Source of the DNA: Janthinobacterium sp. 67
GTDB lineage: Bacteria; Pseudomonadota; Gammaproteobacteria; Burkholderiales; Burkholderiaceae_D
Length of the DNA: 64,000 bases
Assembly (NCBI RefSeq): GCF_002797895.1
Contig: NZ_PGES01000002.1
Span: forward strand, 186,001-250,000
Reading direction: 5' to 3'
The notes beneath the pieces are model-generated. The model saw only the letters and a program-made list of their open reading frames with translations. It had not been told where the DNA came from and made no database searches. The translations under genes were made by a program, and so were the position numbers. Positions 25,962 to 33,265 of the stretch are shown piece after piece (the stretch's first letter is position 1; each line of letters opens with the position of its first letter).

Positions 25962-26098
25962 CATGAAGGAAATTCGTGCTTATCACGCTCGCCGCACACA
26001 ATCGTCCAGGTACTCGCGGTGAGGCATGGCGGGTTATCTGAGGTACCCTGACTTTTTCGGACACTCTAGTTTGGTAAACTTCACCAACTGGAGAACTT

Positions 26099-26410
26099 AT
26101 GACACGCTCAACAACATACACACCGGAGCTTCGGGAAGAAGCGGTAAAACTGGTCCTGACACAAGGCCTGACGCTGGAAGACGCCGCGTTGCGTCTCACC
26201 ATTCCCAAGGGCACGCTAGCGAACTGGGTCAGTGCGGCAAGGCGCGGCACGTCGCCCAAAGTAGCCCCTGGTAGCCGCTCCGTGCCGGAGCTTGAGGCTG
26301 AGGTAACCAAGCTGCGCAAAGAGCTTGCCGAGGCACGCATGGAGCGCGATATCGTAAAAAAAGCGGCAGCGTACTTTGCGCGGGAGTCGCTGCCAAGTAC
26401 GCGGTCATGA
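26099..26410 (+). CDS. IS3-family OrfA
   Basis: This 103-residue DNA-binding protein has a helix-turn-helix (GLTLEDAALRLTIPKGTLAN) and a leucine-zipper-like helix (VPELEAEVTKLRKELAEARM). An A7 run near its end (VKKAAAY) is the -1 frameshift site that would make the OrfAB transposase. Confidence 0.92.
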   Translation: MTRSTTYTPELREEAVKLVLTQGLTLEDAALRLTIPKGTLANWVSAARRGTSPKVAPGSRSVPELEAEVTKLRKELAEARMERDIVKKAAAYFARESLPSTRS

Positions 26411-27267
26411 AGACCTTGCGACTCGAATTTCCTGTCACCATCATGTGCCGCGTCTTTAGCGTCTCGCGCAGCGGTTTCTACGCTTGGGCGAACGGCAAAC
26501 CGTCGCAGCGGGCGCAGGACGACGCACGCCTGAAGGTCGCCATCGAGGCCGTGCACGCGCAGAGCCGGCAGACTTATGGCCCGTTGCGCATGCAGCCGGA
26601 ACTGACGGCGCAAGGCTTTCCGGCCGGCCGTGATCGTATCGTCCGTCTGCGTCGCGAGCTCGCCCTGCGCTGCAAGCAAAAGCGCAAGTTCAAGGCCACC
26701 ACGAACTCGAATCATGACCTGCCGGTGGCCGACAACCTGCTCAATCAGACTTTCGCGCCGACCCGGCCGAACGAAGCCTGGGTGACCGACATCACCTATG
26801 TGGCGACCGGCGAGGGCTGGCTTTACCTGGCCGGTATCAAGGACGTGTTCACCTGCGAGCTGGTGGGCTACGCGATGGACGAGCGCATGACGCAAACGCT
26901 GACGGCAACAGCACTGTGGAAGGCCGTGCGCAACAAACGCCCCGCGCCGGGCTTGATTCACCACTCCGACCGTGGCAGTCAGTATTGCGCCCACGACTAT
27001 CAGAAACTGGTGACGCAGTTCGGCATGAAGCCGTCCATGTCGCGCCGAGGAAACTGCTATGACAACGCGCCCATGGAAAGCTTCTGGGGCAGCCTGAAAA
27101 ACGAGCTGGTGCACCATCAACGTTACGCGACCCGGGCCGACGCGAAAGCCGCAATACAGGAATATATCGAAAGCTTTTACAACCGCCAGCGACGCCATTC
27201 GCGCCTTGGCAATGTTCCGCCCGCGTTGTTCGCTGAAAAATTCAGCAAACAGCCGCGGGTGGCTTGA
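26407..27267 (+). CDS. IS3-family OrfB transposase
   Basis: This 286-residue integrase-core protein has Asp in AWVTDITYVATG, Asp in LIHHSDRGSQY and Glu in APMESFWGSLKNEL, the DDE triad. Its ATG overlaps the orfA stop (ATGA), and it can also be made as an OrfAB fusion by frameshifting. Confidence 0.93.
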   Translation: MKTLRLEFPVTIMCRVFSVSRSGFYAWANGKPSQRAQDDARLKVAIEAVHAQSRQTYGPLRMQPELTAQGFPAGRDRIVRLRRELALRCKQKRKFKATTNSNHDLPVADNLLNQTFAPTRPNEAWVTDITYVATGEGWLYLAGIKDVFTCELVGYAMDERMTQTLTATALWKAVRNKRPAPGLIHHSDRGSQYCAHDYQKLVTQFGMKPSMSRRGNCYDNAPMESFWGSLKNELVHHQRYATRADAKAAIQEYIESFYNRQRRHSRLGNVPPALFAEKFSKQPRVA

Positions 27268-27476
27268 AACAAGAGTGTCCGCTATTGACAGTACACCTCA
27301 ATCGACAAGCGCATGACGGTTGGTTTCTCCGCTCAGGCGGGGCCGTGGCTGTTGGTAGTGCCGGCGGGCTTGCCACCGGAGGCCTTTGCCGCACGCTGGG
27401 TGCATGGCATCATGGATCACGAATTTAAGGTACTACCTGGTCCACCAGGCTGAATGAACGAACAATGCTTTATGAA

Positions 27477-27640: not shown

Positions 27641-29530
27641 CTATGAAGACGTGTCAATATCGAACATGTCCAATTGTGGGGCCGGTGGTAGTAGTTTCTG
27701 GTGCTCAGCATTCGAGATGGACTTCTGCACCAGGTAGTGCTTTAACTCAACTGGAGAAAGATCAAAACGAAGGGAAAGGTTTGCGAAGTATCGATTGCGA
27801 AGCGCAATCTCCTGGTACCTTTGGGTGTGGCCAGTTGGGAGGCTGACAATCCCCTGATTCAGCCAGAAGGTGGCAGATTCAGATGCCGACATATTATTGC
27901 AATCGATCGACATCGTAGGGTATACGCAGGTGATGAACTCACAGGCTTTTTCTGCATCAACACTGAGTTGGTCGGTCTCGTTGAACCAGGTGGTATTCTT
28001 GCCTTTGATTACGCGGTGTGAAAATTGCCTTTCAGGGTGAAGGTATGGGTTCCATAACTCGTCAACCACGCTGCGCATACCTTCGGACGGGGCTTCGTGG
28101 TCATATTTCCCCACCTTGAACCATCGTGTGGTTGGAATGGTCAGTTTCGGTGCCTTGTCGGGTTTTGGGATTGAATATCGTCGTCCTAAAATGTTCACCT
28201 CATACCAGATGGCCACGGCGGGAAATGCTTCGACGGCTTGATAGTGATTGCTCCAATGCCAATCAATCAGCGCCAGCTGTTGTAAGGAAATGAGTTCAAA
28301 AGTTGGGTTGGACATTAGGCGGTTTTCTTTCGTGTCAGCCACGCTGCCTATGAAAATGGCGGCTTCCAATTCTTCCGCCCTGTCCCTTTCGTTGGCATCC
28401 ACTGACAAGAGGTAACGGAGCATGGATTGTCGAAAATCATATGAATACACGTCTGGCCGGATAGGAATGTAACCAGCTGCGCTGACCGTTCTGCCGACTA
28501 TCTCGCGCGACTCCATGTCGAATTGAGTTAGCATTAGCAGGTTGCGGAAGTCGTTGAGAGGCCGCATAAAGGCATTTCGTTCAAGAGTCAGCATGCTCTC
28601 CATGCTTTTGTCCGCTGCGCCGGTCAAAGTGCAAAATGCGCACCCGGTGCGTGCCCCGCAAGGTTGCTTATTTCCCCCGTCACCCAGCACAACGCCACAT
28701 ACACCATCGTTCGCATCTTGGTAGATGGTGAACAGTCGATGCACACTTTCTGCTGAAATCGGCGACAGATATGGGCTACTTTCTGGCTCCAACAGCATTT
28801 CTAGCGTTTCCCAAACATCGGATAGTGTCCAGTTCGCGATGATGCTCAAGACCAACTCGCCGGAAGATCCACGGACTGGTTCATTTGCTGATTCACCGCG
28901 ACTTTCCATCCGTCCTTTCCGCACGGTCGACTCGTCCAGGCGCGACCCAATTATTGTGACCATTTCACGGCCAGTTTGCGCAATCGATCGCGCGTCCAGT
29001 TCGGAGGCCAACCGCTGGGCTGGGTGGTATTTCCAGTCAACGGCACATTGGCGAGCCTTACTGTTTTCTGGAAAGCGCGGAAGCGTGCCGCGTCCGATCG
29101 TTGTTACGATGAACGACGATGCCAGCGATGGGTGTGTCAGGTATATCTCTATCGGCAGTGCATGTTCGGAGAAATGCTCGCGCATTTCATCTTGAACGGT
29201 CAATAGATGCATTTCCATCAATGGGTTTTCGATGCCAGTGCTGCTGCTGCTGATGTAGTGCGTTGTTGTGATGCCTTCGGCAACAGCTCGACGCACAGCT
29301 TCGATCATGAGGACGACACACGAAGTTGAGTCCTTGCCAGAACTGAATCGTAGATGCAGGGAATGACGCTGGCGGATGAGCTCGAGCAGTGTCTCAATGC
29401 CCTGCTCCTGGATTGATTTCGAGTGGCCAATATGGCTGGCTTTAGCATCTTGCGGTGTCGTTGATTCGAGCAGTGCCAAGAGTTCGTTGGTCGTGTCGTT
29501 ACTGGTTGGTCGTGAATGTTGAATGTACAT
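27641..29530 (-). CDS. DndC-like PAPS-reductase-family protein
   Basis: This is a 629-residue protein. A PP-loop SSGKDSTSCVVL near residues 63-74 marks the PAPS reductase/ATP pyrophosphatase fold. Further on, four cysteines in VCGVV, QPCGARTGCAFCT and the following DKSMESM match the Fe-S region of DndC, which makes phosphorothioate DNA with DndB, D and E. No other dnd, ssp or dpd genes are in the window, so the role here is open (sulfur or nucleotide chemistry on nucleic acid, defence or antidefence). The ATG at 29530 is chosen; a GTG at 29560 is in frame. A conserved leader lies 62 bases upstream. Confidence 0.75.
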   Translation of the reverse strand: MYIQHSRPTSNDTTNELLALLESTTPQDAKASHIGHSKSIQEQGIETLLELIRQRHSLHLRFSSGKDSTSCVVLMIEAVRRAVAEGITTTHYISSSSTGIENPLMEMHLLTVQDEMREHFSEHALPIEIYLTHPSLASSFIVTTIGRGTLPRFPENSKARQCAVDWKYHPAQRLASELDARSIAQTGREMVTIIGSRLDESTVRKGRMESRGESANEPVRGSSGELVLSIIANWTLSDVWETLEMLLEPESSPYLSPISAESVHRLFTIYQDANDGVCGVVLGDGGNKQPCGARTGCAFCTLTGAADKSMESMLTLERNAFMRPLNDFRNLLMLTQFDMESREIVGRTVSAAGYIPIRPDVYSYDFRQSMLRYLLSVDANERDRAEELEAAIFIGSVADTKENRLMSNPTFELISLQQLALIDWHWSNHYQAVEAFPAVAIWYEVNILGRRYSIPKPDKAPKLTIPTTRWFKVGKYDHEAPSEGMRSVVDELWNPYLHPERQFSHRVIKGKNTTWFNETDQLSVDAEKACEFITCVYPTMSIDCNNMSASESATFWLNQGIVSLPTGHTQRYQEIALRNRYFANLSLRFDLSPVELKHYLVQKSISNAEHQKLLPPAPQLDMFDIDTSS

Positions 29531-29557
29531 TTTTGAACTCGAGGTTGATCCAACAGG

Positions 29558-29588
29558 CACCCCATACGGGTGGAGTGCCCGAGGGGTG
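29558..29588 (-). promoter_or_regulatory. Leader hairpin before the DndC-like gene
   Basis: CACCCC (29558-29563) pairs with GGGGTG (29583-29588), and an inner GGG/CCC pair extends the stem. It lies between the conserved leader and the start codon, so it could affect translation or termination. There is no T run. Confidence 0.4.
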
Positions 29589-29591
29589 ATT

Positions 29592-29726
29592 GTTTAGATG
29601 GCGTGAGACCATGTATGGATGCCGAAAGCCGGCGTTTAAATTCAGCGAGACTACTCACCTTTGCATGGCAAAGATCAGTGTCGAAGTACTGAACGCGAAA
29701 TAACCAGCCGAGGTGGGCTTGGTGGT
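29592..29726 (-). ncRNA. Conserved structured leader, copy 1
   Basis: This stretch aligns along its full length with 30464-30590. Read on the minus strand, it starts with a hairpin (CCAAGCC/GGCTGG), then CTTTGC-CAT-GCAAAG, GTGAGTAGTC, a GCCG/CGGC hairpin followed by CATCCAT, and ends with CACGCCATCTA. Loops differ while stems and the linking sequences are kept between the copies. It precedes the DndC-like gene. A cis-regulatory RNA is inferred; I do not recognise a named class. Confidence 0.6.
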
Positions 29727-29842
29727 CCAGTCTGCGGGTAGTGCTATGAGGCGGCATCCTGCGGTTGGCATGGCACCAGAAGATGGGATGCGCTCACTCT
29801 ATGGCAGCATGGCTGTCATAGAGTGGCGCATGGTGTTTCGAT

Positions 29843-30034
29843 TTAAGAAGAGACCACCTTGGTAGTCATTGTTTCCTGATTCACTTGCGGTGGATGGTTT
29901 TTGTTTGACTTGATCACGATGTCATCGTCTGCTTGCGCATCGCGCTTCCAGGAAGCCAACGTAACAGGCGGACGTCGACGCATAGCTGCACGATCAGCAT
30001 CGGTGAGGGTACTGCTTGTAGGTGAGCGGGACAT
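29843..30034 (-). CDS. Hypothetical small protein
   Basis: This is an unrecognised, hydrophilic 63-residue protein (MSRSPTSSTLTDADRAAMRR). The ribosome binding site is weak, so it is less certain than its neighbours. It lies between the two leader copies and in the same direction as the surrounding genes. Confidence 0.4.
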   Translation of the reverse strand: MSRSPTSSTLTDADRAAMRRRPPVTLASWKRDAQADDDIVIKSNKNHPPQVNQETMTTKVVSS

Positions 30035-30136
30035 GGTTTTAGGTGCTTTCCGATATAAATGGCGGAGAGCACCACCGAACGGGGGTGTTTCCCCGCTAGG
30101 TTGAATGCCGCTATGCGGCTTGGTGTGGTTCGTTGA

Positions 30137-30424
30137 TTAGTCGTGGATGACGCAAGGATCACCGCTCGCATTTGAGCAATGGCGGCACTCTTGCATTTCT
30201 TTCATCATTTCTTGGTCTTTTCGGCCCTCGCTCCATGCTGCAAGCAAGGCCGGCGCCGAATTGAATTTTGCTGGGACAGTTGGATAACGATCATTGCAAG
30301 ACTGGGTTCCCAGCGTGTAAGCAGCAACCAGGCCTTCTATCGGCTGCGCCTCACCTAATTTATGGTGAACTGCGTGTAACTGCACTGGGGCGCTCGAGTG
30401 ATTATGGATTTGATTGGCTTGCAT
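30137..30424 (-). CDS. Hypothetical protein with C-terminal Cys/His motif
   Basis: This is a 95-residue protein with AGGAGAA before the ATG. The last residues, ECRHCSNASGDPCVIHD, hold CxxC plus Cys and His and could bind zinc. The rest is helical and Gln/His-rich. It is the gene directly downstream of leader copy 2. The function is unknown. Confidence 0.6.
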   Translation of the reverse strand: MQANQIHNHSSAPVQLHAVHHKLGEAQPIEGLVAAYTLGTQSCNDRYPTVPAKFNSAPALLAAWSEGRKDQEMMKEMQECRHCSNASGDPCVIHD

Positions 30425-30463
30425 GTAATTCTCCTAATTGTTTCGTTCGCAATACTTGCGAAT

Positions 30464-30590
30464 GTGTAGATGGCGCGAGGCCGTAGATGGATGCCGTGAT
30501 TCGGCGTAGATAACTGTGCGGTTACTCACCTGTGCAGGGCAAAGGTCAGTAAGACGGTCCAGTCGAACACACCAGCGCAGGGCTGGTGTG
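30464..30590 (-). ncRNA. Conserved structured leader, copy 2
   Basis: This is the second copy of the leader seen at 29592-29726, 40 bases before the start at 30424. On the minus strand the first hairpin is a perfect nine-base stem (CACACCAGC/GCTGGTGTG), followed by CCTTTGC-CCT-GCACAGG, GTGAGTAACC, GCCG/CGGC plus CATCCAT, and CGCGCCATCTA. Compared with copy 1, several paired positions change together, which supports an RNA structure. Confidence 0.6.
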
Positions 30591-30610: not shown

Positions 30611-30880
30611 TTAAACTTCGATTGCAGCGAGGATTCGGGTCAACTTGGTGGTCAATTCTGGTGTGCTAGAAGTGCTGCGATAGCAGTCATCTTCCAACAC
30701 CAGGTACCCAGGTTTCGTCATCGTCCCCATAATGGATTGGAACTGGTTATGCGTAGCGCCTTGGGCCTGCATGGCAGCGTAGAGCACGCCGCCAGGAGCG
30801 CCCTGCTCGCCGGCTACAGCGACCGCCTCGATGATACCCAGGCTGACTGTTGCAAGAACCATGAGCTGGTCTTTTGTCAT
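30611..30880 (-). CDS. Hypothetical protein, possible winged helix
   Basis: This 89-residue protein has a segment GVLYAAMQAQGATHNQFQSI followed by MTKPGYLVLEDDCYRST that reads like a small winged helix-turn-helix. The ATG at 30880 overlaps the stop of the upstream gene (ATGA), so the two are translated together. A regulatory role is inference. Confidence 0.55.
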   Translation of the reverse strand: MTKDQLMVLATVSLGIIEAVAVAGEQGAPGGVLYAAMQAQGATHNQFQSIMGTMTKPGYLVLEDDCYRSTSSTPELTTKLTRILAAIEV

Positions 30881-31260
30881 TCTGTAACCTCTTGCACATG
30901 TATCATCCAAACCGCAGCGGACGGCATACCCTGAATCACGTCCAGGATCTTCGATTCGCTCGGGTGGTGGACCTCGATGTAAGTGCCCTTCTGCAGAGCG
31001 CTCAGCATGTACATGCAATCAGCGAGAGTGCGTACTCCATGCTCCTCACCTATTCCAGTGAGCGTCTCGTGCGCGTCCAGCAGTTCTTGCATGAAGCTGG
31101 CAGACTTTGCTTTCCCATTGAAGATATTGGTGAGAGCCGCGGTTGCAGCGTCAGATTGTGATTCGGGATCGTCGGGTTCAAATTCGGCCTCGTTGAGCAC
31201 GCCGTGGCCAATGAGAAAATTGATGATGTTGTCGGTGAAGTCTGTGCAGGAAAAAGCCAT
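30877..31260 (-). CDS. Hypothetical protein
   Basis: This is an unrecognised acidic 127-residue protein (MAFSCTDFTDNIINFLIGHG), mainly helical with a C-terminal beta segment (GTYIEVHHPSESK). It is coupled to the winged-helix gene. A hairpin precedes it at 31282-31306. Confidence 0.55.
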   Translation of the reverse strand: MAFSCTDFTDNIINFLIGHGVLNEAEFEPDDPESQSDAATAALTNIFNGKAKSASFMQELLDAHETLTGIGEEHGVRTLADCMYMLSALQKGTYIEVHHPSESKILDVIQGMPSAAVWMIHVQEVTE

Positions 31261-31807: not shown

Positions 31808-31987
31808 TCAAGCGTGTATCTTTATGAGATGCTCAAGCATGTGTTTTGCAAGAACGCCGATAAAATTCTGGATGCCGTCGATATCGAGTGGATTTACGCA
31901 GAATGTGGCATACCCGCGATCTCCATAACTCTGGTCAACATGCCACCAGCCAAGCTCATTAGGGTTGATTAGATAAAGTGGATCCAT
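31808..31987 (-). CDS. Small hypothetical protein of 59 residues
   Basis: An ATG at 31987, six bases after an in-frame stop, opens a frame encoding MDPLYLINPNELGWWHVDQS and ending KHMLEHLIKIHA. The amino-acid pattern looks like real coding sequence. It lies beside the left end of the IS at 32009, so a longer original gene could have been cut. The function is unknown. Confidence 0.5.
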   Translation of the reverse strand: MDPLYLINPNELGWWHVDQSYGDRGYATFCVNPLDIDGIQNFIGVLAKHMLEHLIKIHA

Positions 31988-32012
31988 CAGTCAAGACACT
32001 TTCCCGACTAAT

Positions 32013-32978
32013 TTAAGCTGTGCCCGTTTCCACTGCTCCAGCTGCTCGGCGCTGACCCGTATTGCTCTCTTCCTGTGACTTCTTCTTGTCGTCACCAAAC
32101 CGGTCGACGATCAGCGCACCGCCGCCAACCCCGTCGCGGTAGACTTGGTCGGGCGTCTGGTAGCTCAGCGATTGGTGCGGCCGCTCAGCGTTATAGAACG
32201 CGAAATACTGCGCCAGGCCCACCGTCAATTCCGCCATATTGGCGTATCCTTTCAGATACACATCCTCGTACTTCACGTTGCGCCACAGCCGCTCGACGAA
32301 GATGTTGTCCAGCGCCCGACCGCGCCCGTCCATGCTGATGGCGACGCCTTCGCGCTTGAGCACGTCGGTGAAGGCCGTGCTGGTGAACTGCGAACCCTGA
32401 TCGCTGTTGAACAACTCCGGCTTGCCATGCTGGCGCAAGGCGTCCTCCAGGCAGTCCACGCAGAACGACGCGTCCATGCTGTTGCTGAGGCGCCAGGACA
32501 GCAACTTGCGGCTGTACCAGTCGATGATCGCCACCAAATACGCGAAGCCCCGCGCCAACCGGATGTAGGTGATATCGGTCGACCATACGTGATTAGGACG
32601 CGTCACGGGCACACCGCGCAACAGGTACGGATAGACCTTGTGCTGCGGATGCGCTCGGCTCGTATTCGGCCCCGGCGCCATGCCCGCCAGCCCCATGCCG
32701 CGCATCAGACGCTGCACGCGCTTGCGGTTGACTACATGGCCCGTCGCGCGCAGGAACACGACCATGCGCCTGCTGCCATAAAAAGGCCGACTGGTGTATT
32801 CCTCGTCAATCAGCGCGCTCAGCTTCAGGTCGCTCTCGTCCTCGCATGCCTGCCGGGATGCCGCGTCGATCCGGCGGTACACCGTCGCGCGCGGCACGCT
32901 TGCCAGCTCGCATTGGCGCGTCAGCGGCAGCTTCTCGTGCCCGGCTTCGATCCAGCCCAAGCGCGCCTCCTGGCTCAC
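32013..32978 (-). CDS. IS3-family OrfB transposase, second type
   Basis: This 321-residue protein has the DDE residues in HVWSTDITYIRL, ELFNSDQGSQF and DNIFVERLWRNVKYE. It starts with GTG overlapping the orfA stop. The C terminus has a charged tail (DRFGDDKKKSQEESNT). The sequence differs clearly from the OrfB at 26407. Confidence 0.92.
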   Translation of the reverse strand: MSQEARLGWIEAGHEKLPLTRQCELASVPRATVYRRIDAASRQACEDESDLKLSALIDEEYTSRPFYGSRRMVVFLRATGHVVNRKRVQRLMRGMGLAGMAPGPNTSRAHPQHKVYPYLLRGVPVTRPNHVWSTDITYIRLARGFAYLVAIIDWYSRKLLSWRLSNSMDASFCVDCLEDALRQHGKPELFNSDQGSQFTSTAFTDVLKREGVAISMDGRGRALDNIFVERLWRNVKYEDVYLKGYANMAELTVGLAQYFAFYNAERPHQSLSYQTPDQVYRDGVGGGALIVDRFGDDKKKSQEESNTGQRRAAGAVETGTA

Positions 32979-33265
32979 GGCCCCAGCTTTTTTTTAAGCC
33001 AGTCCACTTCCATCTTCAGCCGACCGATCTCGCCGTATAGTTTGTCCTCGGGACTGCTTTCATCGATCGGCTTGGGGCCGCGCTTGGTGTCGAACAGCGC
33101 GCCGGCGTTCTCCAGGATTTCCTTTTTCCACTGGCCCACCAGCACCGGATGCACGCCGAACTCTTGCGCGATCTCCGTCACCGTCTTGACGCCGCGAACG
33201 GCCTCCAGACCGACCTTGGCCTTAAACTCGGCCGTGTGTACCCGACGTTTTTTACCTTCACTCAT
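32975..33265 (-). CDS. IS3-family OrfA, second type
   Basis: This 96-residue protein has a helix-turn-helix (TVTEIAQEFGVHPVLVGQWK) and a C-terminal helix ending DWLKKKLGP, encoded over an A-rich slippery run that can shift ribosomes into orfB. Confidence 0.92.
   Translation of the reverse strand: MSEGKKRRVHTAEFKAKVGLEAVRGVKTVTEIAQEFGVHPVLVGQWKKEILENAGALFDTKRGPKPIDESSPEDKLYGEIGRLKMEVDWLKKKLGP

Follow-up and report, generated by a model that had tools for sequence, protein, structure and literature searches.

The window, a stretch of 64,000 nucleotides of Janthinobacterium sp. 67 that covers bases 186001-250000 of its contig, contains two copies of an element that is, on balance, probably a new structured 5' leader RNA acting in cis on the gene behind it. 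Comparison at the sequence level shows that its sequence and its pairing are conserved, that it is placed before start codons, and that its conservation exceeds the background. The element (helices P1 to P5), its neighbouring hairpins and the genes of the module are arranged as follows, in window coordinates:

27641..29530, minus strand: DndC-like (PAPS-reductase family) gene, 629 aa, start ATG 29530
29554..29581, minus strand: hairpin P6 of leader 1, GGCAC/GUGCC with inner CCC-GUAU-GGG, drawn by eye and fold
29589..29723, minus strand: element copy 1 (P1-P5), leader of the DndC-like gene
29843..30034, minus strand: 63-aa gene lying between copy 1 and the 95-aa gene; over 52 aa its product is 48% identical to the beginning of the HH102 158-aa protein
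30137..30424, minus strand: gene of a 95-aa protein with C80, C83, C91 and H94 among the invariant columns of five aligned homologues
30446..30462, minus strand: hairpin UUCGCAA-GUA-UUGCGAA of leader 2, preceding the ribosome-binding site, in the place of P6 and unlike it in sequence
30461..30587, minus strand: element copy 2 (P1-P5), leader of the 95-aa gene, with a perfect 10-bp P1 from 30591
30611..30880, minus strand: 89-aa ORF, from an inner ATG of the listed 135-aa ORF, ending 19-20 nt upstream of P1 of copy 2
30877..31260, minus strand: 127/134-aa gene, 50% identical to the gene directly upstream of the HH102 element

Three copies and their conservation

The two window copies, of about 130 nt each, align along their full length with 88 of 125 compared positions identical (70%), and local alignment of both leaders gives a score of 65, where 1000 dinucleotide-preserving shuffles average 16.7 (sd 2.2) and do not exceed 26; the original prediction of two full-length copies was thus correct, as were its coordinates and strand. 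It had also called the two genes unlinked, which is not so, given that both copies and both genes are neighbours on the minus strand of one contig of 257,144 bases, presumably a plasmid in view of its size and of relatives on plasmids. A covariance model made from window copies 1 and 2 only (model R1), as the prediction had proposed, detected a third homologue that was not part of it, on the distantly related plasmid pJAB4138 of Janthinobacterium sp. HH102 (L036 5813-5939, 53.9 bits, E 1.2e-11), where it precedes the orthologous DndC-like gene, whose protein is 74% identical to that of the window; a further model, R2, comprises three sequences. In all three copies the element lies on the strand of the gene and 36-58 nt upstream of its start codon, the distance from its 3' end being 58 nt in copy 1 (ATG 29530), 36 nt in copy 2 and 55 nt in HH102. 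For the DndC-like gene we prefer ATG 29530 to the listed start, GTG 29560: the HH102 annotation starts the protein at about the corresponding point, and GTG 29560 sits in hairpin P6.

In the DndC-like gene, the window and HH102 agree at only 71 of 212 four-fold degenerate sites (33%), which is close to random, whereas the HH102 copy of the element is identical to copy 1 at 62% of positions and to copy 2 at 57%. Paired columns reach 81% and 76% in these two comparisons and unpaired ones 45% and 40%, the overall ranges being 76-86% for paired columns and 40-57% for unpaired bases. Given this excess over four-fold sites, selection on a folded leader can be argued, and the element seems to be held by selection in its stems more than in its loops. 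The weak conservation of unpaired bases would fit a leader recognised by a protein or by its structure somewhat better than a small-molecule pocket. Folding likewise departs from expectation: leaders 1 and 2 extended to the start codon give z of -4.0 and -3.8, and whole leaders of all three copies range from -3.8 to -4.0 (200 shuffles each). Counting against the leader, the elements alone, without the 3' part, are less striking (-2.7 for copy 1, -3.9 for copy 2 and -2.0 for the HH102 copy), and the opposite strand, too, folds well as RNA (z -2.2 to -3.5). That the element has no function, its similarity being a residue of duplicated or shared DNA and its folding a matter of composition, would suit a very narrow distribution with three distinct copies only; set against conservation far above four-fold sites and folding better than shuffles, this reading is largely excluded already and must be considered exceedingly improbable.

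Helices, pairing and possible modes of action

The three copies share a P1 hairpin, a long imperfect P2/P3 hairpin and the short hairpins P4 and P5. P1, cited in the original prediction as a stem that keeps pairing while its bases change, does pair in all three copies: its 10 base pairs are perfect in copy 2 and include one G-U in HH102, and in copy 1 the helix is interrupted. Its six innermost pairs, however, are nearly invariant, with one A-U to G-U change, and it is P2 and P3 that vary on both sides. P2 reads TTCAG/CTGAA versus GACTG/CAGTT, with two of five pairs switched to the opposite Watson-Crick pair, and is poor in the HH102 copy; P3 has a G.G mismatch between its ACU/AGU and AYCU/AGRU helices, while P4 is GCCG/CGGC and P5 is GGY/GCC. 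Both sides change at three pairs in P2 and one in P3 (4 of 29 pairs), and G-U replaces Watson-Crick pairs in P1, P3 and P5, as expected of RNA. Standard pairs fill 94.3% of the 87 pair cells of the three sequences, against 31-51% with slid partners; these counts lean towards the structure, since two of the three sequences had supplied the structure to which the alignment (A6) was fitted. Column shuffles equal the number of both-side changes in 31 of 500 cases and the paired percentage in 37 of 500, and the covariation among only three distinct sequences is thin. Not all of the segments named as constant are so: CATCCAT and GCCATCTA are common to the window copies only, HH102 having CATTGAC and GCCAAACC, and GTGAGTA is ATGAGTA in the HH102 copy.

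A further hairpin stands upstream of the start region in all three leaders, alike between the two DndC-like leaders and different in copy 2. In HH102, P6 is GGGCAG/CUGCCC with the inner part as in leader 1, and comparison by eye of the two finds one C-G to G-C and one G-U to G-C change. The element would be transcribed together with the downstream gene, and P1, P2/P3, P4 and P5, followed by a hairpin before the ribosome-binding site, would form a folded leader that controls that gene. How it might do so is a guess in which we place less confidence than in the cis leader itself, namely that it alters the start of translation, a mode weakly favoured over other leader mechanisms since the interval from element to start codon holds no terminator-like site and two of the three leaders are predicted to have their Shine-Dalgarno sequence paired (AGGA of copy 2 at 0.60-0.91, GGAG of HH102 at 0.98-1.00). 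Counting against the guess are the free last G of the copy 2 Shine-Dalgarno (0.15), the lack of a clear Shine-Dalgarno in copy 1, and a start region (-20 to +5) that is less paired than the leader mean in all three cases (0.37, 0.29 and 0.50 against 0.54, 0.55 and 0.57). Elsewhere in the window stretch scanned, there are four terminator-like sites where 1.5 would be expected; two of the four are on the strand of the genes, near the 63-aa gene. A simple consensus scan found no promoter-like site upstream of the elements; the sole such site in the region (30429-30401) overlaps the start of the 95-aa gene, 1.4 being expected by chance.

Since P1 of copy 2 begins so close behind the upstream ORF (19-20 nt), the element may be intercistronic; instead of regulating the gene behind it, it could then serve in the processing or stability of an mRNA, or be a small RNA in its own right. 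This is decidedly unlikely, given the constant placement before start codons and the absence, between element and gene, of any terminator-like site that would end a separate RNA. The main alternative with a known precedent is that the element acts in folded form as single-stranded DNA, by analogy with Frpo/ssi: as a promoter or priming site at which the genes of an entering plasmid would be transcribed from the transferred strand. According to PMC11541004, Frpo elements occur before leading-region genes, several per plasmid, and like the present element they are folded and stand in front of plasmid genes. The plasmid setting and the same-strand block of small genes in HH102 agree with this, as does folding under DNA parameters (z -2.8 to -5.2). 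Simple consensus scans, however, found no -35/-10-like pair inside the elements, so that in contrast to Frpo/ssi no promoter hexamers were found in the folded stretch; the longest stems have at most about 13 pairs, and the G-U replacements suggest RNA. A TrwC-type relaxase, the one type sought, is missing from the own genome, and the HH102 plasmid is typed as non-mobilizable. Taken together, a single-stranded DNA site appears quite improbable.

A cis-acting leader, the regulatory reading of the original prediction, is partly supported: for a conserved folded leader within a plasmid module, one copy of which precedes the DndC-like gene and the other the Cys/His protein, as had been stated, there are a third homologue, conservation far above that of four-fold sites and some compensatory changes. 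It is conceivable, though unlikely, that this represents a plasmid leader RNA class outside Rfam which responds to a signal (a sulfur metabolite, perhaps, or one of the module's proteins) and through which the DndC-like sulfur-transfer enzyme and the Cys/His protein are controlled together.

Distribution and known classes

The novelty of the element, which an Rfam match would have removed, is upheld as far as Rfam goes: across the window none of 4227 Rfam families matches at gathering score, five weak permissive matches (E 1.2-6.3, far below gathering) overlap neither element, and the HH102 stretch gives none at E 1 or better. Like riboswitches and the cis-regulatory leaders of Rfam, the element is a folded 5' leader some tens of nt before a start, with copies before more than one gene; it differs from them in matching no family and in being conserved in stems more than in unpaired bases. 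Among the open-licence literature matches listed, no title or abstract describes the element, and no open-licence paper brings together three of the four subjects dndC, leader RNA, riboswitch and phosphorothioation.

The element family is small and rare, with a narrow distribution in the samples searched, which are subsets of larger groups. The own genome (two contigs, 6.45 Mb) has two copies only at E <= 1, and in the genus sample 2 of 40 genomes (G000 and G263) carry the element with equal scores. Under stricter filters, which may lose weak copies, R1 matched 1 of 245 genomes of the family sample (E <= 0.1), with nothing new above noise, and one of nine plasmid records, HH102 itself; with R2, filtered likewise, 10 of 399 genomes of the order sample matched at E <= 1, only the own genome above noise, and among the 369 genomes of the class sample only the own genome did so at E <= 0.01. 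Of 392 family genomes, only the two already met in the genus sample contain a P3-core pattern, and no viral contig does. Among the 19 sources compared, a model match occurs in only three (the window, L002 and L036). By blastn, copies 1 and 2 matched no plasmid and the HH102 copy only itself, and copy 2 matched no phage. No element lies in the flanks examined at eight loci with DndC-like relatives (L004-L011), and the DndC-like genes of Caballeronia grimmiae and B. vietnamiensis (52% identical) have a different hairpin-rich leader instead.

Several candidates were set aside. The nine remaining order-genome matches of R2 (18.6-27.0 bits) were dismissed as noise, the best lying inside an open frame of 149 aa and seven of the other eight having mismatched or absent helices. 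The pattern GGTGAGTA-N18,38-CGGCATCCAT occurs at 22 loci in viral contigs, none with the remaining element and 12 of them one stretch, and was judged to be chance. In a genome of the same family, L052 1501-1539 (minus strand) is an intact P4-P5-like stretch of 39 nt without P1-P3 (21.6 bits); with an E of 0.4 per genome and 399 genomes searched, this is within chance. It lies about 80 nt before the ATG of a gene that we take to be a cysteine synthase, that is, a sulfur gene.

The module, its gene order and its significance

The DndC-like protein matches the DndC model of PADLOC at 1e-37 (in its longer 639-aa reading) and TIGR03183 at 1e-35 over residues 62-387, with 123.5 bits against an NCBIfam cut-off of 290.4, so that by TIGR03183 it is a relative of DndC and not DndC itself. 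It has no Pfam family at 0.001 and no similar PDB sequence at E 0.01, and, within the module, the nine other proteins of the ten scanned match none of the Dnd models of PADLOC. Of 72,556 plasmid records, 2,511 carry such relatives, most at below 60% identity; among plasmids HH102 alone exceeds 60%, C. grimmiae and B. vietnamiensis coming next, and two peptide patterns found none in viral contigs. In the 95-aa family, retention of C80, C83, C91 and H94 suggests metal binding.

Gene order differs between the plasmids. HH102 has the 170-aa homologue, a 147-aa gene, the element, and the DndC-like, 95-aa and 158-aa genes, whereas the window has (after the 170-aa gene, seen in L002) the 134-aa gene, the 89-aa ORF, the element, the 95-aa and 63-aa genes, the element again and the DndC-like gene; the 89-aa ORF has no homologue in the HH102 stretches compared. 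The two copies, direct repeats spaced 871-872 bp, bound the 95-aa/63-aa pair like a cassette, and together with the differing orders (element-95-63-element-DndC against element-DndC-95-158) they might point to a DNA repeat used in, or left by, recombination. That origin is scarcely probable, for the copies have diverged to 70% yet keep their pairing, the one copy found in the HH102 record occupies the orthologous position ahead of a start codon, and the own genome has no further ones. For the leader of copy 2, we conjecture that an element-DndC-95-63 block was duplicated in tandem and that the first DndC and the last 95-63 were then lost; it is no more than a conjecture because no remnant of the lost genes was found behind DndC. 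The HH102 homologue of the 95-aa gene is without the element, so the link of element and gene may stem from local duplication; the sequence ACAATTwGGAGAATT just before the 95-aa start is alike in both plasmids, as if the element had been placed just upstream of an already existing ribosome-binding site. Retention of its pairs suggests that copy 2 is used at its present place.

The surroundings have features of their own. The 63-aa gene and its HH102 homologue have another common hairpin-rich leader (window 30035-30130, minus strand; L036 8410-8493, plus strand), in which a GCCGC hairpin, AACC and a GC-rich hairpin are followed by TGCTCTCCG...CGGAAAGCA pairing just upstream of the start. Like the element, this GC-rich leader occurs on the same plasmids, has a similar GCCG(C) hairpin followed by CAU, and has a hairpin right before the start; unlike it, it has no P1-P3 and is otherwise different in sequence. 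A search for its hairpin gave 15 viral loci, all of them lacking the remainder of the leader, and one weak plasmid match besides HH102, found by blastn ahead of a gene on Pseudomonas plasmid pQBR55 (82% over 46 query bases, E 0.2). A 14-nt inverted repeat (29795-29825, 93%) in the interval from copy 1 to the 63-aa gene may be a protein site or a terminator that lacks a T-run. A contig of Janthinobacterium sp. TND4EL3 matches the module at 99.98-100% identity and is otherwise near-identical, but lacks window 26039-27300 (about 1.26 kb, 3 bases common at the junction); on this comparison the segment is a recent insertion, and its frames are presumably those of an IS3-type transposase. Identity with TND4EL3 stops at a unit, window 31975-33265, that we take to be transposase-like, and the 193-aa gene of L002 (1058-1639) has its end inside the shared part and its start outside. 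In HH102, the DndC-like gene sits within some 20 kb (L061 8957-29662) whose genes, mostly on the same strand, include helicase, AAA ATPase and HEAT-repeat genes; the region may be plasmid backbone or an establishment region.

The narrow distribution limits the weight of the finding. Nevertheless, if a leader RNA does control a relative of DndC, it would offer a way to learn when plasmid genes of this sort come into use, and it would also show a leader that was put before a second gene and retained there.
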